Both the position numbers and the translations under genes were made by a program. This document shows positions 5,688-44,388 of a stretch of DNA of 64,000 bases, in pieces; positions within the stretch are counted from its first letter, which is position 1, and every line of letters begins with the position of its first letter. The stretch is from Craspedostauros australis (taxonomy: Eukaryota > Bacillariophyta > Bacillariophyceae > Mastogloiales > Achnanthaceae): assembly GCA_026770025.1 (NCBI GenBank), contig JAMXDE010000021.1:930001-994000 (forward strand), in the 5' to 3' direction. The notes under the pieces were generated by a model. It did not search any database. It saw only the letters and a program-made list of their open reading frames with translations, and had not been told where the DNA came from.

Positions 5688-8287
5688 ATGCCGCAATCCA
5701 AGGAGATCTCCCCCGTGATGGCCACGCTGATCCTGGTCGGTGCCGTCGGGGCCACCTACGCGCTCACGAAACGAGCGGAAGAGAAGAAGGTTCTGCGAGA
5801 CAAGAAGGAGGCGTACGACCGGGAACTGATGATCAAGGAGAAGACGCTGGCGGCCAGGAAGCTGACGGGAGAGCCAAGCGGCACCGTGGTCGAGGCTCTG
5901 ACGATCGACAAGGTGTACCTGTGGGAGGTGGAGGACCTCAAGAAGAGATTCCCAGCGTCCAAGAAGCCCAACGTCATGAAGAACGCCAACGTGGCCAATT
6001 CCAACCCCTACTACTTCCCCTCGCTCAAGAAGTCGGAGAGCAACGCCTCCCTCCCAGAGTTGGACATCAGCCGAGAGACGGAGTACAACAAGCTCATCAC
6101 GAACCACGAGTGCATCCTGGGATCCATCGTGCGCAAGCCGAACATGCAGACGCACACCCAGGCGTACGTCCGAGCTGGCCCACGTCGGCAGCTGCACTTC
6201 GATCCGGAGACGGTCAACGCCGCCATCGTCACTTGCGGCGGTCTGTGTCCTGGATTGAACAACGTCATCCGCGAGATCACCAAGACCTTGTGTCAGCTCT
6301 ACGGAATCGGCGGCAAGGTCTACGGCATCCAGGGTGGATACCGCGGTTTCTGGGACCACGGCAACTACCAGCCCATCGAGCTGACCACGGAGCTGGTTCA
6401 GAACATTCACCACGAAGGTGGCACGGTGCTCGGCAGTTCCCGCGGAGGCTTCGATCTCGACAAGATCATCGATTTCCTAGAATCCAGGAAGGTTTCGCAG
6501 CTCTACGTCATTGGCGGAGACGGCACGCATCGCGGTGCATTCAAGATCCACGAGGGTTGCATGGAACGAGTGAGTACGATGCCGATACTACGGGTACTTG
6601 TGTCTGTACTGTGCGAGTACGCTGCTCTATGCCTCGTCTGACAGGGCGTCGGTGTTCATGCATCGGTTGTCCTGCATCTGCAAGTGCTTTACCAAAGTGT
6701 GATATGGTGCTTTACGATGGTGGCGGTGTGGTGTGGCGTGAGAAATGTGCGGCGGCTTGGACGACAGTGTTGTAAACTTGCCCCTGATTGATCGATATGG
6801 ATGAGGATGAGGATGAGCACGATTGGAAAGCTTTCATTCCGACCGCTTTGGTCTGCAAGCCAGCGCATTTGTGCGTGCAATCATGAACATCCAAAGGGTG
6901 GAGACTCACTGGTCTGATTGTCTCCATGACATGCTACATGACACTGTGCAATTCCACATTCGTACTTTCTGCACATACACTCGTGCCTTTCACCCGTAAA
7001 CGCTTGGTCGCCCCATGCACACATGAATGCACATACTGTATGATACAATGATGCACACTCAAAATCGCAATCACAGGGCCTCAATGTTGCCGTGGCCGGA
7101 ATCCCAAAGACGATTGACAACGATGTTGACTACATTGACCATTCCTTCGGATTCAGCAGCGCCGTGGAGGCCGCCCAGGTTGCCATCCGTTCGGCCAAGA
7201 CGGAGGCCGTTTGCAACATGCCCAACGGCATCGGCATCGTCAAGCTCATGGGACGCTCGGCCGGTTTCATCGCCGCCCACGCCACCATGTCATCGAGCGA
7301 CGTGGACCTGTGCCTCGTGCCCGAGGTCCCGATCGTGCTGGAGGGCGAGAAGGGATGCTTGCCACATCTCCGACGTCGCGTGAAGGATCAAGGCTACGCT
7401 GTTGTCGTGGTGGCAGAAGGTGCAGGAGAGGAGGTGCTGGGGGTGTCCGAAGAGAAGGACGCTGGAGGCAACCGCAAGCTGCCACCGATCGGTGAATTCA
7501 TGAAGAAGCAGATTCAGGACTACTTCACAAAGAAGAAGGATACTGCCACCGTCAAATACATCGATCCATCCTACACCGTTCGATCCGTGCCAGCCAATGC
7601 CGCCGACAGTCTGTGTAAGTATGGTGCCGCACTCGAACTTGCATTTGTATCTGCACCTGTGGTCTTTGGGACGAGGAGCAGGATACGAGTACGCTTTGTA
7701 CTGGCAAGATGACAACAAAGAATAATACGGGTATGCATCCGTGAAAACGGCCATTGTCTGTACCACTCGCCATGGCAGGACGAAGCACACTTCGACCGGG
7801 GATTGAAGACTGGCGATGACCATTGAAGATGGAGGTTTGGCTGTGTCGTTGCCGCATTCGACCTGACTCACTCCTGTTGATGCTCTTCCTCGTGCCACCA
7901 CTCGTGCCAAAACTATTGCCCTGCACATGTCCTTGTTACTATTACCCTTCTCCTACTTGTGCACTCTGAATGATGTTGTCGATCGATTCCTCGCGCTTGT
8001 TTCCTTGGTCTTGATCTTGATCTTACCCTTGTACAGACTGTATGCAATTGGCACAGAACGCCGTCCACGGAGCCATGGCCGGCTTCACCGGGTTCTCCGT
8101 CGGACTCTGCAACAACCGCATGGTGTTCCTGCCGATTCCAGAGCTGGTGTCGACCTCGCCGCGTTCCATGAACCCCCACGGTCGTACCTGGGAACGCGTG
8201 CTGGCGCTTACACGACAGCCGAACACAGTCGAACCATTGCCAACGGGCGTGAAGCCCAAGAACTCCCACGCCCCCATGTTGCGTTAG
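5688..8287 (+). CDS. ATP-dependent 6-phosphofructokinase, plant type
   Basis: Three exons, 5688-6569, 7077-7614 and 8037-8287, joined at GTGAGT...CAG and GTAAGT...CAG introns, give a 556-residue protein. The phases fit exactly and rebuild the conserved stretch ADSLYCMQLAQNAVHGAMAG across intron 2. Motifs: GGLCPGLNNVIREI, the nucleotide loop GGDGT, catalytic GIPKTIDND, MGRSAGF and PEVP. Glycine in GGDGT with lysine in PKTIDND is the combination of plant ATP-PFKs rather than bacterial ATP-PFK (Gly/Gly) or PPi-PFK (Asp/Lys). It phosphorylates fructose 6-phosphate in glycolysis. Unusual: residues ~10-30 form a hydrophobic segment followed by a Lys/Glu-rich helix, suggesting membrane anchoring or organelle targeting. 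Confidence 0.93.
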
Positions 8288-26229: not shown

Positions 26230-26895
26230 GCGCGCATCAACATGGACGACAGAAGTGTGGTACGAATGCAGGATACGAACTCGTGGGGCTCCGGTGTACT
26301 ACGATGCGACCTCTACCATAACTGTACATTAGTAGACAATGGACAAAGAACAGAACAATTGACAGATCGTGATGACAATCAATGAACGATGAACGATGAA
26401 TAGTACCAAATGAGAAATGGTTGTACTCCTCTGTCTCTACAAAGAGAGGGAAGAAGAAAAGACGAAGGCAGAACGCATTTTGTCGTTTCATAGAACAAAT
26501 GTTGGACCATCCCCCATGGTGGATCCGCACACTCCAACAACTTTGATGCACAAATGCAACGCGACTACCCTGCCTGACTCTATGAGTACGCACATGCCCC
26601 ACGCCTACCACTTCGATGCGAGGTTTCCGCTGATTGATGACATCCAGGGTGATCGAGGCGGCAACAACTCCACATCAACAGCGACGACATCATGGCATGC
26701 AATTCGGATGAGGCGACGACCAGCATCAATCAACTTGCCTACCATACCGTACGTATGCACTCTCAAATGTAGATTACACAAGAACATGAACAGGAATCAA
26801 AGGAGGAGCAATGACAGCAGCAGCAAAACAAGCTATCCGCAAGCTCACCCGGTGAACACAACAGGCCATATCCATGGTGAGTTTTGTTTCACGGT

Positions 26896-27178
26896 GTTCT
26901 TAGTGCACCTTCCGAACAAGGAAGATCGGGGGGTCAGAAAAGGCCGATTCTTCCTTGCAAGGAAGGACCTTCCGAACAAGGAAGGTTTCGGGCCTCTCAG
27001 GGGGGGTCAAAATCACAAAAAAACAGACCCCAACGCAAACATGACACCCCACTGCATGGAAACAACACGGTTTTTGCTCTACGCGATACATACGGACGTT
27101 GCATCCGCAATTTTACTTCTGGTTCCTGTGCTTACAGACTAGTGCCGAAATTGCAGCACATGCACACGCAGCACTTGA
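26896..27178 (-). repeat. Dispersed hairpin-rich repeat, copy A (~270 bp)
   Basis: Matches 43285-43556 in inverted orientation, with high identity over at least ~240 bases. It contains a perfect 16-base palindrome CTTCCTTGCAAGGAAG (26950-26965) and a hairpin ACCTTCC-GAACAA-GGAAGGT right beside it. The remaining part is unique in sequence and has no convincing reading frame. The 'minus' label is relative to copy B. It could be a MITE-like element or a structured RNA unit. Confidence 0.8.
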
Positions 27179-28774
27179 TGTGAGCCTGTATTTTATACTA
27201 TTGCATCCAACGATTCGATGCCAATGGCAAATGATCCACCGTATTCGCCGTATGCAACTGCATCAACATTGGTGGTAACTACACTCTGATTGTTATTGGC
27301 TCGTCTTTAGTTTGATGTTTAAATTGACATGGTTTGCGTCTAGAGAGCGTCTACCTGCGCCATTTCTCTTCGTGGTTCTTCGTGTTGTTGTGTGGCATCC
27401 TTGTGCTGATCGTCGGTTTTGGCGTCGAGTCGTGGCTTTTGGTGGTTGGTTGTTGTGACATTGGTCGTGTATCACCCCTCGACGGACAGACCTCAGCCGT
27501 CGAAGATGAGCCTTGGATCCTGTGTGTGGAACATGTGGATGTCCAAGGACTTGACAAAGTTTTGTAAAACAGTGGCGGAGATACATGTGCCACACATGGT
27601 CTTCTTTCGTGCGTGTCTCAAACAAACCTCGTACAAATACCGTTGTTCTGTCATCGCTTTGCTCAGTGTTCGACCCCTTGTGTCCGTTGATTTCACCGGC
27701 GGTTAACGGCGATGAGTTGACGTTACGATGCCAACTCTGCTGTATTCGAGGTCCATTCTGTCACCGGTATACGTTCGACACGGATGACAAACAGCATCAG
27801 CCAATCAAACGAATTATGGGTCGCGCATCCACTTTTCGCCGTTCTCCGGAGCTGCCTCCGTCTTGTGCAAAAATCCAACACATCCGCCTTTCAGCATCCA
27901 ACGCAACAAGCCAAGTCGATGCGTGAGGACGAGCAGGCACAACTGCACCGTACTCAGTCTGCAAACCACAATGGGGGAATCAATCCAGACTCTGCAAGGA
28001 CAGTCAAATGCCATGTACGTATTGCATCAACGATCAGTCCAATGCAACATCCAAGCACACAGATGTAAAAGTCATGGAAATCTTGGTGGATGGATGAGAA
28101 GGCGTTGATAGTGGTTGATTTGAGGCAGCGACAGCGAAATAGGCAAAAGGCGCAAGAACGCGGCAAATTGGCAGGCTGGGCGTCAAAAGTGCACAAGCAA
28201 CTACGATACTGGAGACTTATCGGCCCGTTGTTGTGTGCCCTGGTCGGACCTCTTGTCTTTCATTGTGAGTTGTCCGAGGACAATCTCCGATCAGCATTTC
28301 GCTGAATACGAATAGTAGATATAGCAGTAAGAAGTACAGCGAAAGCTGTCAAACAGCTTCACTGCAAAAACATCGTCTCCAAAGTGTCGCAGGACTTCAG
28401 CGGACCCTGGGATTCTAGCGCTGCATGATACCCCTCCACGGTGCTCCAACGCTCTCCGCGTCGTGCAACTTTGACAGCACACTTGCGAATGCTATTCGAC
28501 TGAGTATAATGGGAGCGAGTGATAGCGATGTCATGCTGTGACAGTCTCAGTTTCGCAAATCGATGTGGGTGTGCTTATTATGTATGTTTATGTGCAGCCA
28601 TGGACTTGGACTTGTATTCGACGATGGCCCAAGGAGAGCCGCCGACTCATTTTTTTTTTTGCTTTCCGATCAACGCCACGCCTCCGCTTGGCAACGAGCA
28701 GTGATCTCGTGCTCCAAATCTCTCTGCTGCTATCGAGACATGCGTGACATTCATGGATTGCAGGCAAGCATTTC
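27179..28774. other. Intergenic, possible old relic, no gene
   Basis: No gene supported. Minus-strand frame 27696-27493 (SKAMTEQRYLYEVCLRHARK) and overlapping plus frames are short and unidentifiable. A run of ten T occurs near 28651-28660. Confidence 0.35.
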
Positions 28775-30105
28775 TTATGCCATGGAACCGGCCATCAAAG
28801 TCGCTGCCATTCCCATACCCATACCGAGTCACATGATGGTCGAGCCAATGCTGGATGCACCAGAAGATGTATCCTCAACCTCAAGCATGCAGATGTCCTT
28901 GGCCCCGTACATGACCTTGAGCTTGGTGGTGCCATCTGGAATATCGGATGACTTCACCTCAATCTCGTATGCTCTCATGATGTTGGTCTTTCCCTTGGCC
29001 ACCTTGGTGCCATCTTCGGTGGTGATCTTCACGTCCAAATCCGCGATCAATAGCAAGTCAGCATGAGATCCAAGCATGAAGTTGGATTCCTGGGCGAGAT
29101 CGAGCTTCAGCTTGCATGTTTCTTGGCGGTCTGCGTTGTTGATGGTACCGACTGGACCAACATCTGGGCAGTTTACGTACCTTGGTGTTGGGATGAAGGC
29201 GGCTCTGTTGGCCGCAGTGAGCTCGGTGTTGATGGTAATCTGATTGGCCATGTAGTCGATTGGGAGTTTGGTGACCCAGACCAGCCGCCACAGTGTAGAG
29301 TATCCCACATCTGGACGGTCGAGGTTGATCAGATTGCGGATGCCGGCATTGCTTGGTCCGCCTTGGTTGCCCTTTTCAGCGGACACACCGCAAGTGAACT
29401 GGTTTACTTGCCACAGTGGAATTCATGTGACATTGGTCTTGCTGGCAAAGGTGGTAACAACTGGGATGGTGTGGTTGGCATCATCTGGCTGATCACGGGT
29501 AGTAGGGTTGAAGTAGTCAAGTGCAGCTTGATTGTTGACCTCGAAGATGAAGATCTGAACGTTCTGTCCCTTGTAGAAGGCGGTGATGGGCTTGACTGGG
29601 GGCGGTTCCGGTCTTGTCCACAGGGCTCTGGAGGGAGGATCCAGTTGGGACGACCAGGAAGTTCATGATGATGTCGGTCTCCTTGAGAGTGTTGCCACTG
29701 TTGATGACATCTCTGGCACTCTTTCAGAGTAAGAGTTGCCATCACTGGTGTGAAACTCGAGAATTGGCTTTTCGATGACACCGGTGAAGTCTTGGAGGTG
29801 GTTTCCATCATGACCTTCTGGATCGGGACATCTGAGGATGTGCTCATGTTTGGTGGGCCGCTGATGAGATCTGGGTAGGTGCCTGAAGTGAAGATGCGGA
29901 ACTTGTAGTATTGGATGAGGCGATTGTTGTACCATCCTCCATGGGCGTTGAACTCATAGTCCATGTTCTGTGGAGAGAGATCGGCGGCCTCATAGATGGT
30001 GGCAGGGATGGAGTCGATGTAGTCATCACCAATCGCAGCCATGGCACCGTGGGCGGCCATGGCGATGGCAGCGATGATGAAGGAAGTCGCCTTTCGGAAG
30101 TTTGT
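28775..30105 (-). pseudogene. Decayed secreted/surface protein gene, copy 1
   Basis: Minus strand. It begins with a signal-peptide-like stretch (NFRKATSFIIAAIAMAAHGA); the Met codon expected here from copy 2 is replaced by ACA at 30105-30103. The body runs through at least three frame changes: YYKFRIFTSGTYPDLISGPP, then FTGVIEKPILEFHTSDGN, LKETDIIMNFLVVPTGSS, KPITAFYKGQNVQIFIFEVN, and finally a clean block 29386-28829 (INLDRPDVGYSTLWRLVW, SNFMLGSHADLLLIADLDV, YEIEVKSSDIPDGTTKLK). One in-frame TGA falls near 29427 and another just after GSTIM (28829). Past that TGA a hydrophobic tail (LGMGMGMAATLMAGSMA) ends at TAA 28775. Signal peptide plus hydrophobic tail suggests an ancestral GPI-anchored or membrane-bound surface protein. 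Family not recognised. Confidence 0.7.
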
Positions 30106-31791
30106 GTTGACAAGCTGTCGGCTGTCTGCTTTTTTGGTTGTTTGAGTGTGGAGTGTTTGCTGTTGGTTGGTTTGTTGATGTGTTTGCTTTTTCTTTGTGC
30201 TGAGCTTGGATCTGCGAGATGAGCTGAATGAGGAATGGAGGAGTGGACAACTTTCTGTCATTTGCAATGGAAAACACAACGGTTGCTGCGTCGCATTCAG
30301 CCATCCTTAATGAACGGCTCTGTTTGCTCTGTTCCCCGTCGTGTCACCTGAAAGGATTTGACAACGGTTGGATCTGTGGCGACCACGAGAGATTGCCAAT
30401 CATCTTCCAGTGACGACGAGAGAAGATACGGACATCAAACGCGCTGGAGCACTGTCGGTCCGTGTGTGCTTCCCTTGTGTGTCGTTACACCGATTCGGCA
30501 CTATCATCTTGAAGGATCGAAGATTGCTTGAGCGCTTTTGTTGTTGTAGGAGTGTGTGTCCGGCGAGGTTGAATGTTGAGCCTTCGTGAGTGGTTGTGGT
30601 CTTTTGGGGGAGTATCTTTGGGAGAACTGGTCGCCGGTGCTGCTTGCGAAACACGGACCTGCCAAGATTTCGCGTTCCTTCCATCGCTCGTCAACTTTGC
30701 GGACAGCACAAGTTTCACCATTGCGCGCTCTTTCCTCGCAAAGATGCTGCCCACGAAGCACGCATCGCGCCAACCGATCCAACTGCGGATCCGTTCGTTG
30801 GGCGAGCGTGTTACCACACCTACTCGTGCCATACTCTGCTAACTTACTCCCAACCTACTGTGTTCTGCTTTCGTTTTCTCTATCCCATTCAAGTCAGCGC
30901 ACACAAGGCAAGATGTATTGCTGCTCATGACGAAATCGCCTGGATGCACCACGGCGGAGACGGATGCGTGGGGGTAGAGTCCGATATGGAGCCAGTCTCC
31001 ACTCGATTTCACAAGATGACTACCGTCACAGCGGCAATGTGAAGATGAAGATGTGCATCAGGAGTAGTCGTATGCACGAGTAGCGAAACCCCTCGCTCGC
31101 ACGTGGAATCGATGAGCTCTTCATCCACCAAAGCTATTGAAAGCGCTTGCTGCGCGGACGGCCTCATCTCCGAATGCTCCACACAGATGAACGCATCAGT
31201 ACCACACAATGGTAGTGGGCACCCAATGCTGCTGGCCATATCTACAAATGGTACAAACAAGGATGGAGTTGGTTGCGGCGTGCGGGATTTATCACCGAAT
31301 GTGCGAGTATGGATTCGCGGAGATGCGCCAAATCGTCTTGCTCCGCAGAGTACTCCGGACTTGAGAAGCGTGGGGTATTCAATTCTTCTCTAACCTACTC
31401 TATTTTGCATTGTGGCAACGACTTCACGATCGAGAAGACCAACAAGGAATAGCCAATGCAAGGGGCAACCGAGAAAGGAAGACAGCATCCCCCCTTGCCA
31501 TGGTTGCGGCATGATCCATTGAACGGCCGCCCGGAAATACGATACTCCATTGGGCTTTGCATGGCCGAACCGCGCACTCTGTCAGCGATGCTGCTGCTTT
31601 GTTGTCCAGTTGGTCTGTGCGATCGCGTTTGTGATGATATTGGTGATGCCGTGGCGCTCATGTTGATGCTGGCCGACCGCGCAGCGCCACGCCGAGTTGC
31701 GGGCAATGCTGCGCCGATGATGCCTGGCGACAAAGTGAGTCTCACAAACGCAGGACGATGAGATCCTTGCAGCTGAAACGATGCTGACAAG
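30106..31791. other. Mostly non-coding; 5' region of two decayed genes
   Basis: The first ~130 bases are homologous to the leader of copy 2 at ~35185-35311. The rest has overlapping open frames on both strands without motifs. A plus-strand frame ending at GTGAGT 31735 could splice in phase to 31792 (57-base intron), giving a possible first exon (from ATG 31561 or 31663) for the acidic gene downstream; weak. Confidence 0.35.
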
Positions 31792-34088
31792 GAAGCTAAG
31801 CCAAGACTCGAAACCCCATCGACCGTCGAAGGTGAGGAGGTGCCGCAACCAGTGCGATTGTCCAAATCCGAGGCGGAGGCAGAGGTAGAATATATCCCAG
31901 ACGACAAACTCGAGGACGACACGGAGGCGGCAGCCAAGATCCACGACAAGACCGAAGTCGCAGGCGATGATGAACTGAGCGAGCAACCGGCATCGTTGAC
32001 CCAGCCAGAGATAGTTGCTGTGACCGAATCAGAGGTCGCCATCGACGCCTACATTTCACAAGCACCTGAAGTCGACCAGGAAGTAGAATGTGTTGATGCG
32101 CAACAAGGCGACGTTCTGCAACAGGAACTATTCGAATATGGTGAAGACTTGGGGCCTGAGTTGGAGGGCGAACTGGAGCCATCATCTTCCATCGAGATCT
32201 ACCAAGACGCAGAATCGGATATCGAACGAGATATCAAGGACGATGCGAATGACGATGATGGTGCTGCTGAAATTGAAGCAGCCACATCACAAGTCAATGA
32301 AGGCTTGGAGTCTCAGTCCGTTCTCGATTCTGACACTGTTACATCTGGAGCGGATGTGCGACGTCCAGTCGTGAACGAGGAAGATGCTGAGCCCGTGGCT
32401 CTGCAGGATGCCCCACTGGCCGTGAAGTCTGACAAAGATGAAGACGAAGCCACCATTCGCGACAGCGACGACAAGCAAAACGATGATGTAGCAGGTTTGG
32501 AGAAGCATGCTAACACAGCAGCGCTGATTGGAGTTGCAGTGGTTGCGGCAACAGGAGCTGGGGTTCTTGACACCACGGATGACCAAAGTGAAGAAGGAAA
32601 CGCGGAAGAGTTCAAGCTGGAGCCAAAGGTGGAGGAGCATCCCGAACAGAATGCACTCGACTCAATCACACTCCTTGACGCTGCAACACCTGCAGACAAC
32701 GAAGATGAAGACGACTTGGTCCCGCCTGCGTCCGCTCCAAGCTTCATGCGAGGCACACAGCCAGGCAACGAGTACGTGGACATGCCTAACAAGGCGATGG
32801 AACACTCCGCAAATCTTTTGCCGGACAACAACGAGGATGTGGATGCTGACGCTGATGATGACGACGTAACCGAGGATTCCGTCGCAGAAGCTGAACAGTT
32901 GACAGCGATTGCGGATGCCTTGAAATCAGAGCCATCTGTCAGCTCCAAAGGGCACGACGACCGTGACGCCGAAGTCGACTCAAAGTCTACAGAGACATTC
33001 CAGTCTTCTCAAATGCTTGAGACCGAGCATGGCACCGACACTGCGCAAGTTATCGATGCCACAGCACGTGCGCTCGACCTGCCGGAGGAGATCAGGCCAT
33101 GCCAAGACGTCAAGGCTGATTCTTTGGAGGACTTTTTTCCGCTGCAGAGTCCGAGCCAGAAGATGACGCAGAATCACCGACTGCGCCCGTGCTGACCGAA
33201 GACGCAAGGTCCAACAACGAGGCCGACAAGAAGACCAACGAGTTCGCACCAAAAGAAACGAAGTGGACAGATGTCGAGCCAGAGGATGAATCCAAACCGG
33301 AAGTGGAAGAAGTCAAGATGTCTGCTCTGAAGGTTGCCAGGGTGGAAGAAGACGAGGAGGCAGCGCTTGAGCATGCGCTTGTGCTGCTGAAGAGGCTCAC
33401 TCAGGCTACGGATGCGGACGTGCCAGCATCAGAGTCGGCCGCCGCTGACAGTACTGGAGAAGAGGATCGTCAGGAAGCAGGTCTTGAGCGTGGGCTCCTG
33501 TTGCTCCAGACCTTCAATCAAGAGGAGGACATGTCACAGGCAAAAGCAATGGCTAACAGCTCCGACGAAGACAAAGACAATAAGGAAATGGAGCTCTCAT
33601 AAGTCCTCGAACGAGGAGCAAGGTTGGAGGTGCATGCGCAACCAATGAAGACGTCAACTCTGACATCGGAAGACAAGAGCATCGTGCGTGACGATACAGA
33701 CGTGGGCCATGATACCAATCGAGAGGTAGTGGCTGACGAAGACGGGGATGCCACAAATGAAACTGCTTCCGCCACTGATACTCCAAACCGAGAATAGCAG
33801 GAACGCGCAAGCTCAATCATTGTGGAAATGGCCGCGTTCGTCGTGGACGCCAAGGTTATCATCCAGCCAGCACCCAAAGCTCCAACCCATGATGCCCATG
33901 GTGCCGACGGCAATGGTAGTGATGGTGCCATCGTCAACGAAGACAAGCAAATCATGAGCGAAGCGTTCACGACACGTTATGCACACCAGACAGACTGAGC
34001 CAGCAATGCGTCCCATGATGATACCGAGGGCTTAATTTCGCACCCAGAAAAGGGCGAATGCTTTGGAACTCTGTGCCAAATCGTGTAA
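31792..34088 (+). pseudogene. Decayed gene for a large acidic repeat protein
   Basis: A plus-strand Asp/Glu/Ala-rich frame runs from 31792 to 33195 without an ATG near its 5' end. At a run of six T (33133-33138) the coding sense moves to another frame, which continues from SAAESEPEDDAESPTAP through 33599 and then past TAA (33600), TAG (33795) and TGA (33996) to TAA at 34086-34088. The C-terminal part holds three related units beginning LEHALVLLKRLTQ, LERGLLLLQTFNQ and LERGARLEVHAQ. Composition suggests a long disordered or coiled acidic protein; no enzyme motif is present. Loss of start, one frameshift and three stops argue for a pseudogene, though one frameshift could be a sequencing error in a homopolymer. 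Confidence 0.6.
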
Positions 34089-34740
34089 TCGTCGCACAGA
34101 GGGAGTAGCACCCGCAGTAGAATAAGAACATATGTTATGTTATATAGTGAGGAAGGTCCTAGGAATTACACAACACATCAGAGCCCAACACGACTGCAGT
34201 CAAAGTATGCACAAGTAGATCGAAATCTACTCAAAGCCGAGCAGATCGCAGAGCATGCTTTCCCCCACGAATTCAACAGTTCCGCTGATTCCGCGCTATG
34301 ATTGCGCATCAGAACTGAGAGGAAACCGAAAAACGGAGTTCTTCGCGAAACTTGACGATAAGGATTGTGATGAGACCATGCATCCTATTCAATATACTCT
34401 GCGCACAAAACCTTTGCTGATAGAGACATTGAGTGTGCCCAACAAGATTGTTGACTATTGTGAGTGCTTGCGCCACCTATCTTGGCTGTGCAATCTGCGT
34501 GTTCTCTGTTCCAGGACGAGTGATCGGATGCACAGGGCAACAACTCACCTGCGTCATGGTTGAACAGGACTGGAGTTACAACACGATTGATGGCCCAAAT
34601 GAGTGATCGTTATGGTGTGCTCGGATTGGTCTTGTGCAGAGCATGGTACTCGTGCTTGTGCACAATATACGATTCCATTACATCATCTGTCGATGTCCGC
34701 TCTTGGAAATTCGACTCCATGTTGCGAATTAGGCATGAAT

Positions 34741-35311
34741 ATTCGTGAGCGTTCCAACCAGCATGGCTGGGACCATGCCCATGCCAATGGTGATGCTGGA
34801 TGCATCAGAGGAGGTGTCCTCAACCTTGAGCGTGCAGATGACCTTGGCTCCATACATGACGTTGAGCTTGGTGGTGCCATCCGGGATGTCGGACGACTTG
34901 ACCTCAATCTCGTATGCTCCCATGATGTTGGTCTTCGTCGAAGCCACCATCGTTCAATCATCTGCCACGATTGTCACGTCCAATCCTTGCTGCAAGAGCA
35001 AGTCCGAATGAGATCCAAGGATGAAGTTGGATGTCTGCGAGATGTCGACCTTCAGCTGGTGACGGCCTCGTAGACAGTGGCAGGGATGGTGGCGATGTAG
35101 CCATCACCAATTGCAGTCATGGCACCGTGGGCGGCCATGGCGATGGCAGTGACGATGAAGGAAGTCGCCTTTCGAAAGTTCATGATGGCAAGCTGTCGTT
35201 TGTCTACTTTTTCCGGTTGCTCGAGTGTGGAGTGTTGGCTGTTGGTTGGTTTGTTGATGTGCTTGCTTTTTCACTATGTGTTGATCTTGGATCTGTGAGA
35301 TGAGTTGAATG
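34741..35311 (-). pseudogene. Decayed surface protein gene, copy 2, with internal deletion
   Basis: A truncated relative of 28775-30105 in the same orientation ~5 kb away. It keeps an ATG at ~35186 (MNFRKATSFIVTAIAMAAHG), the signal peptide and IPATVYEAV. It then jumps, with loss of some 300 codons, to LKVDISQTSNFILGSHSDLL near 35055 in another frame. After a TGA near 34957 it continues through GAYEIEVKSSDIPDGTTKLN to a hydrophobic tail (IGMGMVPAMLVGTLTNIHA). The upstream ~125 bases also match copy 1, so the duplication included the leader. Together the copies define the ends of the ancestral protein. Confidence 0.7.
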
Positions 35312-36210
35312 AGCAACATTGATGTTCCTGTCCTCCACAATGATAGTCCTGAGAGATACAATGTCAAAGCACACGGTCAATGAGCGCGGATGCGGTGGGA
35401 TGTTGGTGCACATGGCGGTGTCTCGCCAATAATCTTTGGATTCACAGCTGATCCCCTTGCCATGGCAGTCTTCGCAGGCTGTGTACTTGTGGCACACGGA
35501 CAGGTGCGTATCCCATTTCTGATGATGTTGGGGGATGCTCCAAGTCCAACATTGCCAGGACATTTTCCGTCCTTCGATGTTTGGGAGGGGAACAAACCAA
35601 CCAAGGCTGTTCGATGAAAGACGGTTTCTTTGTGGATGCGCATGTGGTTGTGTGGTTGTGTGGTTGTGGGTGCGTTCGTTTTTTTTACGAAGTTTGTTCC
35701 CAAGATCGCAGAATGCACAACGTGGATGCAATCGGATGTTTATCAGAGTGAATATAACCATGTCACACCCCAATAAGCGAAACTGAGAGGCCAACCGCAG
35801 AATTTCGAATGGGTGTTTGAGAGAATGAAGCATGGTTCGCATTGTGCCGGAAGCAGTCTCAACGCTTTTCTTGCCAAAGTTACTCAACTCCCCCATGTCA
35901 TACATCTCGTCAGCCCCAAGTTCATTCTGCGTTCAAGAACAAGAAAAGTCCACCCACACCAACAACTCCCCAACAAGACCAAGGTCTCTGAGGCGACTGA
36001 GCTTCTGTGACCCAAGATCTCTTGTGGGAACCAACAAATCCGTTGAATCTCACAACAGCACCAATACTCTCAATTCAACCTAGTAACAGCATTTGGAACA
36101 CAACCACCTGCTGCACTCATCTTCCACACATTCCACTTGTGCCTCAACTTTGTTCATACAGCCAACCCTGTGCAAGATTCTTAGATCTGTGTTACATCTA
36201 TTGAGTGACC
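35312..36210. other. Intergenic before the transposase-nuclease gene
   Basis: No gene supported. A 233-codon minus frame (35905-35204) overlaps the leader of the copy 2 pseudogene and has no motif. The region should contain the promoter and any left end of the transposase-nuclease element; no terminal repeat or TTAA duplication could be assigned by eye. Confidence 0.35.
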
Positions 36211-39200
36211 ATGTCTTTGGATCATGTTGGCGGAGGCAATGATGACTTGTGGGAGGATGATGACAGCAACAGAGGCATTGATCCAGACAATCTAGACTTG
36301 GAACCACTTGATGAAGATGCTGTTGTCCATCCTTCGGATGACAACACAGTCATTTGGACTCCTGATGACTTTGATCTGGACGATGACCATGATGACAACA
36401 TTGCAGATGACTTGGACGCAACAGATCCCAAGAGCAAAGCCTCCAACTCCAACAGCAACTACCTCATGGCAGAAGAGAATGAAAATGCAGATTCTACACA
36501 GGATAACAGCACCTTGAACACCAACAATGCCAATGCCTCTCCTACAACTGCAACTGCATCCACCCGCAACACCAAATCCGATGCAGCAAAGCTGGCAAGC
36601 ATGAGCCTCAAGTGGAAGCTGCAGACAGGGGTGGACGAGAAGCATCGTGTCACAGTGGGCGAGGCCCGTGCAGACAGCAAAGTGATCATGAACAAGGAGA
36701 TGGTGCACATCCGAAAATCGATGCAAGATCTCACATGCAGCAAACGACCAACACCAGATGATATTGTTGATCTTGTCTTGGGTCCCACATCTCAGCTGTA
36801 CAGAGGTGCATTTTCACAGGGTGTCATGAAGATGGATGCATTGGAGTACCTGCAGTTCATGGTTGCATTCACCACACAATCAACCTTCTGTACAAGCACC
36901 AAAAACATGTACACCATGGGCTTGTTGAGCACCAAAGTGGGGTCCCCAAGCAAGATGGAATACATCAATTGGTGGTGCAAAATCCATGAAGATGGCAACA
37001 CGATCGAGTCCAACCCCCACTACTTTTGGCAGGATCTCCAGGCTCATTGCAATCACGCAATGAAGCAGCTCATTGTGACAGGCATGTCCGGAAAACGCAC
37101 TGTGACAATCGATGACGATAAAGTGCACTGTGAGAGCAAGGTGCCGTTGCGCAGTGGCATTGCCCGGCACAAACACCCAAAGTCCAACAGATGGGGGTGA
37201 GTTGTACTGTGCACATACTCTACTTTTGGATCATGCAATTGAGTGTATGTCATGATTGTACAATTGTCAATCATTTTGAATCTCACACACACCACATACA
37301 TGTCTGCATCCCTCTCTTTCTTATCAAATTTCGTTGCTTTCCTATATCACGAACTTGTGAAATGTCAATGTATAGATTCACCATTGATACCTTGGCAATG
37401 ACAATGTCCGGGGTCCCTTGTGGAGTCCAAGTCATCCAGGAAACCAAGACAAACACCGCAAAGGATCTGATCAAGACCCAATTCGCAACCACCAATGCCT
37501 TGCAGAACACAGAAGTTCTTGCTGATCGCGGATATGGCTCTCTCAAGCTCACACAGGGTCTTGTTGAAGGCGGAGCGGACCTTCAAGGCACTCACAAGAG
37601 GGCTCCACACATGCCATTTGTCAATGGAACGTACCGGACCAACCCAAACCAACTCATGATCAGTGTGACAGAACCCACAAGACTCTTCCTTGCCACCTCC
37701 AACAAGGTGAAGGGCGCGACCTACTGTTGCTATGGTCTCCGAGACAACGGAAAGATGATCATGATGGCAAAGACGGGAGTTGGAAGGTTCGAATGGGATC
37801 TCACCATGGCAAAGGTGAAAGAGGAGATCATGTACCTTCGCCACGTTCAAGCCAAGCGCACGAATCACCCAGATCTTCTGGCTCATCCAGAGAAGTTCCC
37901 AGAGTACTTCTCTGCAGCTGTCATGAACCTGGAGAAGTCTCCTTCTGTGGTGCTCGCAATTCAGGCCAGAGGTGACGCAATTCAAGCCATCCAGAATGCA
38001 CCAAATGACCCAGAGGCAGTCAAGGCAGCCGTCATCCTTGCCGAACAAGCTTCACAGGCAGCGGATGATGCAGAAGACAAGGCAAGGGTGAGATGGGCAC
38101 AGAAGATTCGTGACCTTGATGTTGTTGGGATGACCTGCGAACAGCGAGATCCGCTTTGGTTCATGTTGCGAAAGTTCTGCTTGACGAGCTCCACCGTCCA
38201 CAACATCATCAACGTGGTCCTGGCCAGCACCGAGTGGTGCAAGGAGACAAATGGCCATGTTCTCCATCATCAGGCATGGGAAATCATTGCCACATTCATG
38301 GGCATCGACGTTGAGGCCAGAAAGCAACAAGCCCATGTGGAGATCGGAACAGGTGAAGTCAAGAATCGGGCACGTGAGCGATTCAATCTCCTCACAGATG
38401 ATGCCAAAGACTCAAAATCCATCGAGCAAACAATCACCCAAGTTCTTCAGAATCGCGACAATCCTCCTGTCAACTGGCTGCTCGAGGATGTGACTGAATT
38501 GGTGGTGCTCTTCTGTGGTGGGTTCAAGCCAAAAACAGCTGACAGTATCTACAAGAAGCTCAAGACTGTGATCCAACGACAGCAGAAGCTGGATCGCCGG
38601 TATGTTGCCATGACGCCAAAGACCATGGAGGCAATCTACAAGGCAAGATTCCCCAACTCTGGCAAACTTCCGGCAAAGGGTGAAATGATGAAGGCATTGG
38701 TGCGGGATGACAAAGCATCCATCACTTTGGATCTTGACAATCTGGAGGTGGACGGTGGCAACAACGATGTCGAAGGCAGCAGCACCAGCAATTTCGACCG
38801 TTTCCCATTGGCCAACAATGGCGTTGGCATTGCCTCTCTGGCTTCCCTTCCTGTTGAAGCCGATGTCATACTTGCCAACAGACACAATGTCGAAGGCGAC
38901 ACCGAAGGCATCAGCAACAACGATGTGAGGAATAACGAAGAGGACGGAGGCATGATGGTGCTGAAGGAGGCCTTGGTGAAAGAGGCACTGAAGACGTGGT
39001 TCATGAAACCTTTCGCTGGCGAGGAGCGACGTGCCACCAGACTTGGCCACACCAATGAGCAGCCACTCATGAAGAAAGCTGAAAAGATATTGGAATTGAC
39101 TGGAGATCCTAGCTGTGTGAAGGCCGCATACACAGCAGGGTTGGTGCATCGCGGAGACAAGCCCTATGCTCGATCATCCGTTGACTTTCTCGCGGTTGTC

Positions 39201-41021
39201 GGAGACAGCACCAACGATGAAGATGATGAGGTCTTTGTTGTCGAGATGAAGACCAGGGCCTCGCGCAAAACCAAGGAGGAGGAGAAGGAGCATCAATTGT
39301 CGGTGAAACACCAATACCGGCTGGATCCCAACTTGCATATCTTTGCAGATTCAGAGAGCGGCATCTTTCGGGCATTGATCCGCAAGGAAGGCGAAAGACT
39401 CCAGTTGCTCCATCATGCCTTCGTCTACGGTGTCAGTGGAGCACTCATGGTGATTGGTAAGTTCGATGGCATTGGCATTCACTATGTGTGATGAGATCCG
39501 GTCCATGCTGCTTCCGCCAATGCACGATGTTCACATGCTATTGACACCATACTAACTCGTTGCTCACTCTGATACTTGTGTTATTTGATTGGAACTGCAT
39601 GGCAAGCAGGTGACAGCGGGGCCGAAATCCTCAGATCTGTTGCAACCAGATTCACGCCTGCATTGATGGAAGCCTATGCCTTGGTGCTTGACGATCTGTA
39701 CAAGCTTGTGATCGAGTTTGCATACGAAGAAGATTCACCAGGACGAACTCCATCTGAAGATCTCATGAGGCAGTTCATGTCATCCAATCCGGGCAGTGGC
39801 AACTTCGAGGGCAAAGGGTCCTACCTCCCAAACATGTCAGAGGATGACCTCTTCCATCAGCTCATGATGTGGAAAGGATGTGAAAATCTCACCTTCCCGG
39901 TCCCTCGTGTCAAGACCTTCCTTCCAAAACTGGCAGCAAGATGGAACATCATGAAGGGTGGTTCCGATATCATGTCAAGATTGATGGAACAGCACAAGGT
40001 GAAGCCCCCAAAAGTCTCCTTCCAATGCGTACTCGTGTCGCGTCTGATGCAACTGATGATGACGCTCGTGCACAAGCTAATCCAGATCACGGACAACAGA
40101 GCAATTGAGACAAATGCAGATCTCGATCGATCACCATCGTTGATCCATCTTCGGAACAAGATGAACAAGAAGTGGAGCTACCGTGACTCCCTTGCTGCCA
40201 TTACCAAACGCCTATCCCACCACTTGGCTGTGGCTTACACTCAAACCCGACTGGCACGTGAAACGAATGACGAGACGAGGCTCAGAGACATTGAAAAAAC
40301 CCTCAGTCTTCCCAGTGGTGTCAAGTCATGCCATGGTGGCAAGTTCAAATTGAATGGAGTGCCAGAGACTCGGCAGCCGTTGTTGGCCATCCTTGGTAAG
40401 CCCCCAGCTGAGAGGACTGTCTCAGAGGCATCGTTCATTGAAGGCCTGCACAAAGGAGACCATACCCTTGTGACGGTTCCAAAGAAGAAGAGAAGCTGTG
40501 TGGTATGCAACCTGCAAGTCACAACATATTGTACAGGATGTCATCTCACTGTCTGTGGAGCAAGCAGAAAGAAAAAGGAAAAGTCTGCATGGATGGAGAA
40601 GTGTGGCATCCCAGGTCATCTGGCAATGTTGAAGGTACCCGATGGAGACAAGGTCCTGGTGGTTCCCAACACATGCCACCACATCCTGCATGGCAAAGAC
40701 ACTGAATGGTGCACAAAGGTTGGGAAAGGATTGAAGGAGACTGCTCAACCTGCAGTCGTGGCAGTTCAGAATGGTCACGAACGAGCTGGAGAAGCTGAAG
40801 AATCTGGAACAGATGGCAGGCCAGCAGCGGCAGCAGTGGCAGTCGCAGCAGTAGCACAAGTTACCCAAGAGGGTGGAGATGACGCACAGGATGAAGAAGA
40901 ATTGCAAGCAAGGAGGGAGGCAGACAACAGGAAGGCTGCGACAGAGATGAAGAAACGAGCGGCAGCTCAATTTGCCGCTGAACAGAAGGCTCGCAGCAAG
41001 AAACGACACCGCACAACCTGA
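36211..41021 (+). CDS. piggyBac-like transposase fused to YqaJ-like nuclease and zinc-binding tail
   Basis: Three exons, 36211-37196, 37376-39456 and 39610-41021 (introns GTGAGT...TAG and GTAAGT...CAG), join in phase to 1,492 residues without a stop. After an acidic N-terminus, residues ~170-430 resemble DDE_Tnp_1_7: YLQFMVAFTTQS, GLLSTKVG, a first acidic site in TVTIDDDKV followed by HKHPKSNRWGFTIDTLA across intron 1, and a second in VLADRGYGS (Asp ~379). Residues ~575-1060 resemble a YqaJ/PD-(D/E)XK nuclease: DPLWFMLRKFCLTSS, SVDFLAVV (Asp ~932) and VVEMKTRA (Glu ~952, Lys ~954). Near 1319 lies a cysteine motif CVVCNLQVTTYCTGCHLTVC like the piggyBac C-terminal finger, then a basic tail. Probably a mobile-element or domesticated transposase protein acting on DNA. 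The third catalytic acidic residue was not located. Confidence 0.75.
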
Positions 41022-41703
41022 ATGCACTCCAGAGAGATCCGCGCCAACAGTAGGGAAAAGCAGCATCAATAGCATATCAGCTCACCTACGCAGATGCAAC
41101 AGATCTGTGCAAGAAGACAGACAACGACACGAAAATCAAACGGATTATGAACGCGAAAGACAAACAACGAAAATGTGATCATAACGTGAATACATGCGAA
41201 AGGCATCCCACGAAAATGAAATTAACACGTGGATACACGCGAAAGGCAGATAAACGAAATGCTCTCGACTCAGATCGTGAGAATTATAAACTTGAGAAAA
41301 ACAAAGAAAACAACTTCTACATTTTGTGCACGCAAAGTTACTATAGAGCATCTCAGGAACAGGAACAGATTTTGACCAAGTTGGTACAATCCATCACATC
41401 ATCGCAAAGAACGGGATCATCATGGATGAGATCCAGTACCACAGAACTCTCTCCTCATCCATGAGAACAAGGTTGTAAGACTCGGCACACCAAACCGAAA
41501 AGCAAACAATGAAATCACAAGCATGCTCCAAAGCAATACCATGACAAGACAAAAAGATGACATTCCAATGGTATGAATGGGTATTACTTGCATGAGCGAA
41601 GGCCATTTAGTTGGTTACAGCTATGATACTACTCATCCGTACCTCCTTCAAAGCGATGGCAGATGAGGCTGATTGAAGATGTCATGTCATGTGAGTCGAT
41701 GTC
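41022..41703. other. 3' flank of the transposase-nuclease gene
   Basis: No gene seen. A degenerate ~20-base direct repeat (CGTG.ATACA.GCGAAAGGCA) occurs at ~41184-41205 and ~41228-41249, and a TTAA lies near 41221. These could mark an element end, but no matching left end was found. Confidence 0.35.
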
Positions 41704-42592
41704 AATGTGACGTGATGATGGATGCGGATGTGATCTGCTGTGGATGTGGATTGAGGTGGAAGTGAGTGGATGCGGATGTGGATCGATGTGGATGTGTTCT
41801 GTTGTGGAGGCGAGTGGACGTTGATGTGATCTGTTGTGGAGGTGAGTGAATGTGGATGTGGATGCGGACGTGGATCGATGTGGAGGTGGGTCGATGTGGA
41901 GGTGATCTGTTGTGGAGGCGAGTGGATGTGAATGTGATCTGTTGTGGAGGTGAGTGGATGCAGATGTGGATCGGTGCGGATGTGATCTGTTGTGGAGGTG
42001 GTCTGTTGTGGAGGTGAGTGGATGTGGATGCGGACGTGGATCGACGTGGAGGTGATCTGTTGTGGAGGTGAGTGGATGTGGATCGAGGTGGAAGTGAGTG
42101 GACGTTGATGTTATCTGTTGTGGAGGTGAGTGGATGCGGATGTGGATCGATGTGGAGGTGATCTGTTGTGGAGGTGAGTGGATGCGGATCGATGCGGATG
42201 TGTTCTGTTGTGGAGGTGAGTGGATGCAGATGTGGATCGGTGCGGATGTGATCTGTTGTGGAGGTGATCTGTTGTGGAGGTGAGTGGATGTGGATTGAGG
42301 TGGATGTAAGTGGATGCGGATGTGGATCGAGGTGGAAGTGAGTGGATGTTGATGTTATCTGTTGTGGAGGTGAGTGGATGTGGACCGATGCGGATGTGAT
42401 CTGTTGTGGAGGTGAGTGGATGCAGATGCGGATCAATGTGGACGTGGATCGAGGTGGAAGTGAGTGGATGCGGATGTGATCTGTTGTGGAAGCGAGTGGA
42501 TACGGATGTGGATCGATGTGGATGTGGATCGATGCGGATGTGATCTGTTGTGGAGGCGAGTGGACATGGATGTGGATCGATGCGGATGTGAG
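41704..42592 (+). repeat. GT-rich minisatellite (~0.9 kb)
   Basis: Degenerate tandem repeats built from short blocks such as GTGGATGCGGATGTG, GATCGATGTGGAGGTG, ATCTGTTGTGGAGGTG and AGTGGATG arranged in variable order, giving larger units of about 50-60 bases. The strand is strongly asymmetric (G and T on plus). Most frames on the minus strand stay open because the unit lacks stops there, so the 240-250-codon minus frames (HPHPLTSTTDHI-type repeats) are not evidence of a gene. Confidence 0.9.
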
Positions 42593-42744
42593 GTGGCATT
42601 GGTGTTTTCAAGTTTGGTGTTGTCGTCTGCGTTCTCTTGGTGGATGTTGCTGTTGCTGTTGCTTCTGTTGTTGCTGGTGGCGTCGCTGCGCGGTTGGCGT
42701 TTCCGTCTGGCATCCATCCCACCTTCTGCCAAGAGAAATGGACA

Positions 42745-42892
42745 CGCAGAATGATGCTGGTCACACCGAAACAAACCAATTTTCCTTGTTCGGAACACCC
42801 AAAAACGATCACATTCTTTGGCGCAGACACCCAACACAACTGTCCAACACAGAAGCTGAATACCACGAACTGTCGCTGTACGCATTAAAATG
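42745..42892 (+). mobile_element. Small Ty1/copia RNase H remnant
   Basis: A 48-codon plus-strand stretch resembles the end of copia RNase H: NDAGHTETNQFSLFGTP, ILWRRHPTQLSNTEAEYHEL and a stop. The hallmark is W..R..Q..NTEAEY..L, matching the W.SK.Q..VS.STTEAEY..L pattern. The upstream sequence is not identifiable. It directly follows the minisatellite. Confidence 0.5.
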
Positions 42893-43284
42893 ACGTTTTG
42901 GAAATATTGAAACGATACCGAAGCTGTTCCCAACGCCTCCTTCAAAATGTTTGAAATTGAATGTAACGTGTCAAAAACGTCTCAAACACCGTGAACACGA
43001 TCAAAACACGACCCAGATTATCGTTGATTGCGAACAGAGGAGAGGAATCGGAACCATCTACTCTACACGTGGAGGACGGACGTCCTCCCGCTTGTGTCAG
43101 TCTGAACGTCAACTTGCATTTAGACGTAGCAATGGAACAATGACACCCACTGTACTAGAGGAACACAACAAAGATATAAGAATGAATACTGCCATGATCG
43201 GTCCTCCACATGCATAGGAGAAGTATGGATCAGCTATAGTGGAAGTAGAGACATTGGATTAGATGGAGGAGGTGCACATGGAGA

Positions 43285-43556
43285 GTGCGTGTGCCAAAAT
43301 GTTGCCACTAGTTTGTAAAGCACAGGAACCAGAAGTGAATTTGCGGTTGCAACGTCTGTATGTATCGCGTAGAGCAAAAAACGTGTTGTTTCCACGCAGT
43401 GGGGTGTCATGTTTGCGTTGGGGTCTGTTTTTTTTGTGATTTTGACCCCCTCTGAGAGGCCCGAAACCTTCCTTGTTCGGAAGGTCCTTCCTTGCAAGGA
43501 AGAATCGGCCTTTTCTGACCCCCCGATCTTCCTTGTTCGGAAGGTGCACTAGAGAA
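43285..43556 (+). repeat. Dispersed hairpin-rich repeat, copy B (~270 bp)
   Basis: An inverted counterpart of 26896-27178. It carries the same 16-base palindrome (43487-43502) and ACCTTCC/GGAAGGT hairpin, and has one extra CCTTCCTTGTTCGGAAG unit just outside (43557-43575) followed by an A-rich run. Differences from copy A are scattered single bases, so neither copy is very recent. Confidence 0.8.
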
Positions 43557-43575
43557 CCTTCCTTGTTCGGAAGAA

Positions 43576-44388
43576 AAAAAATCACTATGGATATCAAATC
43601 ATCTGAATTCGGCAGTCTCGCTGACGCATTGCAAGAAGAAAAGAAGAAGGGAGGTTGGGAAAGACATGTCGATGACAATGCAGAAGGCAGCCGTCCAGAA
43701 TGTACCATGCAACACCCAAGTGAGACATGCTTATCCATAACATTATAGAATACCAACAATATCCTCACGCATGCACAAACAATACTTGTAGAGTAACACA
43801 CTAACTTTGTGATAAAATGTTTCATGACCTTTAACAGATGGCATAGTAGTATAATAGGTACGTGGAGTGGAATGCTCTACTCGTACGACTATGTACTCCA
43901 TCGGCAGATTGCTCCACAATTCAGGATCTGCATCCCATCTGACAAGCTCCGCCAAACGAATGAAGCATCCGCCAAAGTGACACCAACACCTTCGTCCATT
44001 CTACACGACAAAATCATTGATGAAGTAGTCGAGCTGGTCATTCGCCAAAGTCATTGACGACCGTTACCGTCTCCAAATTTTGACGTGGCCAAATGCTCTC
44101 TCGTGGTGACAACAGGAAGAGCACAACACGTCGATGACCCACACACGCAGCAAAAATTCGTTCCCTGTTGTGTTGTCGTGTTGTTGAGCATTTGTGAGCG
44201 TTCTCACCGTTGAGCGAAGGACGTTGGCGTTCGCGTGATCTGTTGTTCCCACACTTCCCAAAACTTGGGCGTGTTTCATTTCCGTCCTCCGACCAAAGAC
44301 ACTTTCTGCTCAGCACAGAGATCACCAGCAACCAGTTCCATTTGAAGATCCAACGTCAACATCCAACACCAGCATCAACAGAGACAAC
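43576..44388. other. Intergenic, promoter side of the ArfGAP gene
   Basis: No gene supported. The ~200 bases before 44389 are A/C-rich with many short CAA runs, as in the leaders of the other genes of this window. Confidence 0.4.

Follow-up and report, generated by a model that had tools for sequence, protein, structure and literature searches.

The transposase gene and its predicted introns

The 64,000-nucleotide stretch of Craspedostauros australis DNA analysed here (the window, C19:930001-994000, in a genome of 74.8 Mb and 90 contigs) carries a large gene, on the forward strand, inside a DNA transposon whose ends adjoin ATAT. A sequence-only reading had taken this gene for an intact fusion of a piggyBac-like DDE transposase, a YqaJ-like nuclease and a zinc tail. 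We analysed the gene and the element around it, and searched for their family across the whole genome, which has 61 matches to the chlorophyll a/b-binding family, in keeping with a photosynthetic eukaryote.

Enumeration of GT-AG joins gave an open, in-phase join of three exons from a start at 36211 to a stop ending at 41021 (1,492 codons). Exon 1 (36211..37196, +) encodes an acidic N-terminus and the first catalytic Asp region, with TIDDDKV at 37105-37125, whose three Asp codons span 37111-37119. Exon 2 (37376..39456, +) contains the second catalytic Asp (ADRGYGS, Asp codon 37524-37526) and, after it, the candidate nuclease. Exon 3 (39610..41021, +) contains the putative third catalytic Asp (WNIMKGGSD, Asp codon 39966-39968) and a Cys-rich tail. 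The predicted introns are both of the GT-AG type and measure 179 bp (intron 1, 37197..37375, +) and 153 bp (intron 2, 39457..39609, +). Another possible AG lies 3 bp upstream at intron 2, and an acceptor after 39606 or 39609 gives 1,493 or 1,492 codons, respectively. Three further open joins were found for intron 1 and four with different intron-2 donors, all of which we judged to have weaker splice sites than the chosen join.

The best support for both predicted introns is the recurrence of the break positions in relatives. At about 30% identity, the frames of the translated relatives stop, or cease to be similar, at the same two exon borders. The junction pattern was printed for the window copy and two of six relatives (C29 and C24_510) and failed for the other four. 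The intron-1 donor is GG|GTGAGT in the window and GG|GTAAGT and GG|GTAAGA in the two relatives; the intron-2 donor is ATTG|GT in all three. The AG|G acceptors of C29 and C24_510 agree with the acceptor at 39609. Intron 1 starts about 24 codons downstream of the first-Asp motif, which itself sits in exon 1. These results agree with the sequence-only reading, which had joined three exons in phase into about 1,490 residues and placed the first intron in the first-Asp region.

The DDE core and the probable position of its third acid

The putative catalytic motifs are conserved in the family. T[IL]DDDKV was present in 14 of 14 aligned exon-1 rows, DRG[YF] around the second Asp in 13 of 13 exon-2 rows, and KGGSD in 8 of 8 exon-3 rows, where the rows include many close copies and represent, by our count, about 7 lineages. 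Pfam DDE_Tnp_1 matched the second-Asp block of two of the six exon-2 proteins searched (L019, E=1.1e-4, 22.5 bits against a cut-off of 23; L028, E=3.4e-4), and NCBIfam IS1182 matched one of the six (E=0.0025).

Slices of piggyBac (6x67 with piggyBat 9c0f) were then compared with the joined family profile of 1,075 residues, which includes the nuclease, using shuffles as control. The second-Asp slice aligned in register on the second Asp of the family (0 of 60 shuffles as good), and the third-Asp slice aligned in register on KGGSD (4 of 60). When the third-Asp segments only were compared, both picked by eye, none of 200 shuffles reached the score. The third catalytic Asp is thus likely that of KGGSD in exon 3, judging from the resemblance of WN-x-x-KGGSD to the YN-x-x-KGGVD of piggyBac. 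With a third Asp at this position the nuclease would sit within the transposase domain and not be appended to it, and its most likely location on these alignments is between the second and the third catalytic Asp.

Exon 2 offers another candidate for the third acid, the Asp (37797) of an F-x-W-D motif that is invariant in 13 of 13 exon-2 rows. If this residue were the third acid, the DDE core would be complete upstream of the nuclease, which would merely be appended, as in the KolobokE elements discussed below. In the window copy the motif follows the second Asp at a distance of 91 residues, close to the spacing of about 100 residues between the second and third Asp in piggyBac. However, the third-Asp segment of piggyBac selected KGGSD over F-x-W-D, with the shuffle score given above, and KGGSD retains the WN-x-x-K-G-G-x-D pattern, invariant in 8 of 8 rows. 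We consider the F-x-W-D arrangement rather unlikely.

Besides F-x-W-D, several results weigh against a DDD core of the IS4/piggyBac kind with a nested nuclease. The match of the window copy to DDE_Tnp_1 was not significant (E=0.16), its exons had no significant Pfam match, and DDE_Tnp_1 was found in only three of the nine aligned second-Asp blocks (best 8.4e-5) and in 1 of 5 joined constructs. For the family proteins, no library family reached its curated cut-off. The first-Asp and strand-5 slices of piggyBac landed elsewhere on the profile (27 of 60 and 29 of 60 shuffles as good). When the joined DDE profile was compared with piggyBac over the whole domain, 5 of 150 shuffles scored as high and only the second-Asp block aligned. 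Profile searches of the PDB found no transposase and no nuclease. They did return ankyrin structures (two at E<1e-6), which we rejected, because they fall on the helix after the second Asp and are the sum of weak repeat hits.

Pfam DDE_Tnp_1_7 gave no match in the three window exons, the nine second-Asp-block members, the eight exon-3 members, the six exon-2 proteins or the five joined constructs. The same family had 160 matches elsewhere in the genome and, by eye, none of those listed overlaps a stretch of our family on the same strand. Of the piggyBac/DDE_Tnp_1_7-like region proposed from sequence, the DDE-type core is supported, with DDE_Tnp_1 matching in relatives only, and the assignment to DDE_Tnp_1_7 is not supported. 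One piggyBac match (C12:1465380-1466681) lies on the opposite strand inside a decayed family copy (C12:1463674-1470202), as if inserted there.

A candidate PD-(D/E)XK nuclease and a Cys/His tail

The nuclease region of exon 2 has two conserved parts. The N-terminal segment (38094..38393, +) carries W..KI..L.V.GMTC.Q.D.LWF..RKF.LTSS, which is conserved in the alignment. The core (38952..39456, +) carries GHTNEQP, SSVDF (Asp codon 39183-39185), VVEMKTR (Glu 39243-39245, Lys 39249-39251) and LLHH. Residues 582-650 of the window exon 2 matched TIGR03033, a lambda-exonuclease family (E=0.0011, 19.1 bits, curated cut-off 68.05). L026 matched it in the same part at 0.02, and the other four exon-2 proteins had no match.

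Nine aligned cores were also searched at E up to 1. TIGR03033 was found in five of them (best 0.0026, window copy 0.012) and PHROG 434, a RecE-like recombination exonuclease, in four (best 6.1e-5, window copy 0.0074). Single members gave weak matches to the PD-(D/E)XK families UPF0102, Endonuc_Holl and PDDEXK_4. All 9 aligned cores share the NE, the D of S-x-DF and the E and K of VE-x-KTR. Nucleases of the lambda-exonuclease/RecE/YqaJ type have the catalytic pattern E ... D ... ExK, and the family has this pattern in NE, S-x-DF and VE-x-KTR. The library matches are weak but agree in several members, suggesting that exon 2 holds a lambda-exonuclease/RecE-type PD-(D/E)XK nuclease. A domain of this kind in the predicted chain had also been proposed in the sequence-only reading.

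Other comparisons did not find this similarity. A genome-wide search with Pfam YqaJ at E up to 0.001 did not find the family; among the matches listed it found L001 alone (C25:34761-35165, -), a 365-residue frame for an ordinary nuclease of the YqaJ family. The profile comparison between the nuclease core and L001 was not significant. Structure prediction, which the sequence-only reading had suggested, gave no usable model of the nuclease core alone when run with single-sequence AlphaFold2 (mean predicted local distance difference test score, pLDDT, 43). These last two results count against the assignment. At the N-terminal segment the only match was a weak one of the LTSS segment of L026 to Viral_alk_exo (E=0.15). 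Scans with the family alignments, three of viral and one of prokaryote sequences, matched patterns and found no relatives; a viral scan with piggyBac found nothing, and one with L001 found one locus, L072.

The Cys-rich tail foreseen as a cysteine motif is present in exon 3 (40497..40690, +). It reads C-x2-C-x7-C-x2-C-x4-C ... CHH-x3-H and is reached by 6 of 8 aligned rows. Its library matches are all sub-threshold (PHD_Oberon, E=0.013; zf-HIT, 0.012).

Selection on the protein

Ratios of nonsynonymous to synonymous change (dN/dS) were calculated for 10 copy pairs, which are not independent of each other. In the DDE block (163-164 codons) dN/dS was 0.11-0.25 in the 10 pairs. In the nuclease core (158 codons) it was 0.08-0.31 in the eight pairs with a core dS >0.04, and 0.50 and 0.57 in the other two, which have very few changes. 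The two nuclease segments are joined by a linker, which gave 0.29-0.83 and exceeded the core in 9 of 10 pairs. Exon 1 gave 0.13-0.52 (one pair had no synonymous change) and the exon-3 part 0-0.46. The DDE block and the nuclease core thus look constrained, and the linker less so. For the N-terminal nuclease segment (100 codons, 0.06-0.81) the constraint is less clear, which weighs against the reading proposed here. In the pair of the window and C25 copies, dS was 0.03-0.07 in five blocks and 0.21 in the nuclease core, and this unevenness suggests exchange between copies.

These values bear on whether the nuclease fold is kept only as a structural insertion domain, its activity lost. Several other DDE transposases have an insertion domain between the second and the third catalytic acid, and those domains are not known to be nucleases. 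In one deletion derivative (L073, described below) SANF replaces SVDF, changing the catalytic Asp to Asn. Against such a loss, the nuclease motif residues are invariant in all nine aligned members, and in 8 of 10 copy pairs the protein sequence of the core evolves slowly. A merely structural role is therefore improbable.

Element ends and target site

The whole element spans 26868..43594 (+, 16,727 bp) in the form ATAT|CC ... GG|ATAT. Its ends were found by motif, and both end regions recur in the genome. The left terminal inverted repeat (26868..27165, +) and the right one (43285..43594, -) are 93.4% alike over 273 columns, when element bases 29-298 are compared with the inverted right end. 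The outermost 22 bases of the two ends match at 18 of 22 positions without gaps.

In the family, element edges were taken from DNA comparison of diverged copies, and 14 flanks were printed at the alignment edges. The edge was exactly ATATCC (left) or GGATAT (right) at 12 of the 14. In the two exceptions (C24 and C62) the taken edge was 20 bases short, and GGATATCC was found 20 bases on. ATAT occupies only 0.15% of window positions, and chance does not account for finding it at 12 of 14 homology edges. Both ends were present in three elements, namely the 16.7-kb window element, C29_636:764-7073 (6,310 bp) and C60_100:703-7351 (6,649 bp; locus numbering for the last two). ATAT flanked both ends in all three, which were themselves located using that motif. 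The target of the family is ATAT and not TTAA, the site that the sequence-only reading had expected. Since ATAT is a palindrome, a 4-bp and a 2-bp target duplication give the same picture.

The left end region had 42 genome matches and the right one 33; many are the same places, because the two ends resemble each other. Pairing of ends with transposase places by eye suggested further elements of about 14.6 kb (C16), 26.5 kb (C58), 33 kb (C25) and 36.6 kb (C3). A search for empty sites with the joined flanks of the three two-ended elements gave 44 matches (40 of 256 candidates were scored), and none of those listed spans both flanks. The window flanks matched only themselves, and the flanks of the other two elements each matched other places singly. 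Elements of different lineages lie directly side by side at C24:39949 and C62:97176 (locus C62_89 position 7283). There the GGATAT of one is followed immediately by the CC of the left end of another, with one ATAT common to both, and they look as if one had inserted into the target site of the other.

The window element also contains other DNA. Two degraded copies of a gene lie at 28760-30330 (-) and 34690-35400 (-), with matching stretches 81% and 88% alike. The reading of this gene begins with a signal-peptide-like stretch, and related DNA occurs at C1, C2, C7, C12, C25 and C37; the copies may be captured host DNA or cargo. An acidic open frame of 472 residues (31777-33192, +) lies in a stretch with a 98% alike counterpart in the C25 element. 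Between the transposase gene and the right element end, at 41717-42591, there is a long array of GGATGTGGATCGATGTGG-like units.

Family copies in the genome

The genome-wide copy search suggested by the sequence-only reading revealed a large family and allowed its terminal inverted repeats to be defined. With exon 2 as query, at least 121 matches clustered into at least 57 places; these counts are lower bounds, as 63 of 140 candidates were scored. The second-Asp stretch was present at 54 of the 57 places, the nuclease core at 46 and both at 43. Exon 1 gave 70 genome matches and exon 3 gave 93. Close copies of the window gene lie at nine places; the exon-2 identity is 92-94% at eight of them, whereas the copy at C58 matches in pieces of 78-96%. 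The remaining copies share 27-35% identity in the first part of exon 2 and mostly 40-49% in the nuclease part. With the window copy itself, the close copies number ten. It and two copies on C3 were stop-free in all three exon searches, and the other seven carry stops, gaps or missing parts.

At nine places the second-Asp block is kept and the nuclease match stops at residue 597, short of the catalytic Asp. The listed stretches contain stops at seven of these places, and we treated all nine as deletion derivatives. A 2,220-residue frame at C28 was considered as a nuclease-free variant and rejected, since it is a run of unread bases. Places with nuclease and tail and no detected DDE block were considered as solo nuclease genes; the one that was read (C88:26950-29150; L073 and L074) resembles a deletion derivative. 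It holds the N-terminal part, the nuclease core with the changed Asp and the Cys tail, with no DDE blocks seen, and is possibly a repressor or mere decay. C38, C27 and C12 may have places of the same sort. In one lineage (C24:32635-34965, that is locus C24_32, 1-2331, and relatives), the exon-1 frame opens with many repeats of about 24 residues (STSTPVTDSIINANNSPNQQ...).

The copies also allowed us to weigh whether the genes form a domesticated host gene family instead of a mobile transposon, as the sequence-only reading had considered. The distance to a contig end is about 10-17 kb for four copies (C3, C27, C58 and C81), two pairs of which have long common flanks, and segmental duplication may thus explain some of the copy number; the exchange suggested by the uneven dS fits a host family as well. 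In contrast, copies bounded by terminal inverted repeats have ATAT at unrelated flanks, the end regions occur at further places, and many copies carry stops. Because several such bounded copies exist, we regard domestication as very unlikely.

Comparison with known transposons

The family shares several features with piggyBac. Members of the piggyBac superfamily have 5'-YY ... RR-3' termini, and the CC ... GG termini found here fit this pattern and adjoin a short palindromic AT-only target. The second-Asp and third-Asp segments appear to align in register, and the Y/W-N-x-x-[KM]-G-G-x-D pattern is present at the candidate third Asp. Both proteins have a Cys-rich C-terminal tail. However, the family targets ATAT where piggyBac targets TTAA, has no DDE_Tnp_1_7 match, and leaves the first-Asp block unmatched; its protein is also much larger and carries the nuclease domain. 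With the IS4 clan (Pfam DDE_Tnp_1, NCBIfam IS1182) the family shares the second-Asp block, which matches in relatives. It differs from that clan in the nuclease, which IS4-clan transposases do not have, and in the candidate third acid, an Asp here and Glu in those transposases.

Two transposon groups combine a DDE transposase with a related nuclease. ISL2EU (PHIS group) has an AT target site duplication, terminal inverted repeats usually starting with GG and, as the sequence-only reading had stated, a separate YqaJ nuclease as second open reading frame, according to PMC4482050. On that account, ISL2EU resembles the family in being a eukaryotic DDE transposon with a YqaJ-type nuclease. It differs in that the family nuclease shares an exon with the second catalytic Asp, and in that the family repeats start with CC next to ATAT. 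Kolobok has TTAA target site duplications and 5'-RR...YY-3' termini, its second and third catalytic residues are separated by a stretch with a C/DxxH motif, and KolobokE has its nuclease 'downstream of the transposase domain' (PMC9587614). KolobokE would thus share the combination of a lambda-exonuclease-like PD-(D/E)XK nuclease with a DDE transposase, whereas ATAT and CC ... GG set the family apart from the TTAA and RR...YY of Kolobok. The invariant columns that follow the second Asp in the second-Asp alignment showed no C/DxxH motif, for which no systematic search was made.

A bacterial parallel is TnsA-TnsB of Tn7, a PD-(D/E)XK nuclease and a DDE transposase that are two proteins, sometimes fused end to end, not nested. 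There, too, a nuclease partners a DDE transposase, but our family is eukaryotic and its nuclease is likely nested in one chain. The layout of the family is shown in none of piggyBac, ISL2EU and KolobokE. A literature search by titles and abstract openings, with Repbase and most subscription journals outside it, found no nuclease nested in a DDE transposase and no ATAT-specific superfamily.

A proposed mechanism and its meaning

In conclusion, our results suggested that the gene probably encodes the transposase of an ATAT-targeting DNA transposon family, most likely of the cut-and-paste type, in which one chain combines a DDD core of the IS4/piggyBac kind with a nuclease nested between the second and third Asp. 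In the mechanism that we propose, the RNase H-like DDD site would free the 3' ends at CC|ATAT and join them to ATAT. The nuclease would occupy the place of the insertion domain, held beside the DDD site, and would cut or trim the complementary 5' strand at the element ends. One protein would then do the work that Tn7 divides between TnsB and TnsA, and the Cys/His tail may bind the palindrome-rich element ends. Second-strand cutting by DDE transposases varies between families, and we infer only weakly that the substrate of the nuclease is the complementary strand at the ends.

The nuclease may instead resect the break at the donor site, or the target, after transposition. It would then favour copy-restoring repair in the manner of RecE or lambda exonuclease and would not cut strands at the ends. 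We hold this role to be possible, and resection of the donor break about as likely as end cutting, because the closest library families of the nuclease (PHROG 434 and TIGR03033) are recombination exonucleases. The function of the extra open reading frame of ISL2EU is stated as unknown in PMC4482050, which leaves room for such a role. The likely position of the nuclease between the transposase catalytic motifs, as far as the alignments place it, suggests action at the transposon ends.

Since the family misses defining features of piggyBac, ISL2EU and Kolobok, there is a real chance that it is a new superfamily. Tentatively, it may be the founding family of a eukaryotic, ATAT-specific cut-and-paste superfamily whose DDD transposase had its insertion domain replaced or enlarged by a lambda-exonuclease-like nuclease. 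Two nested nucleases of different folds would then share the strand cuts, as a single-chain counterpart of TnsA-TnsB. If the nesting is true, the nuclease is physically tied to the active site and its role is testable by point mutation in one gene. Site-preferring transposons are known mostly for TTAA and TA, and an ATAT-specific element would widen this set. From such a layout one could learn how a single protein carries out both types of cutting that the movement of DNA requires.

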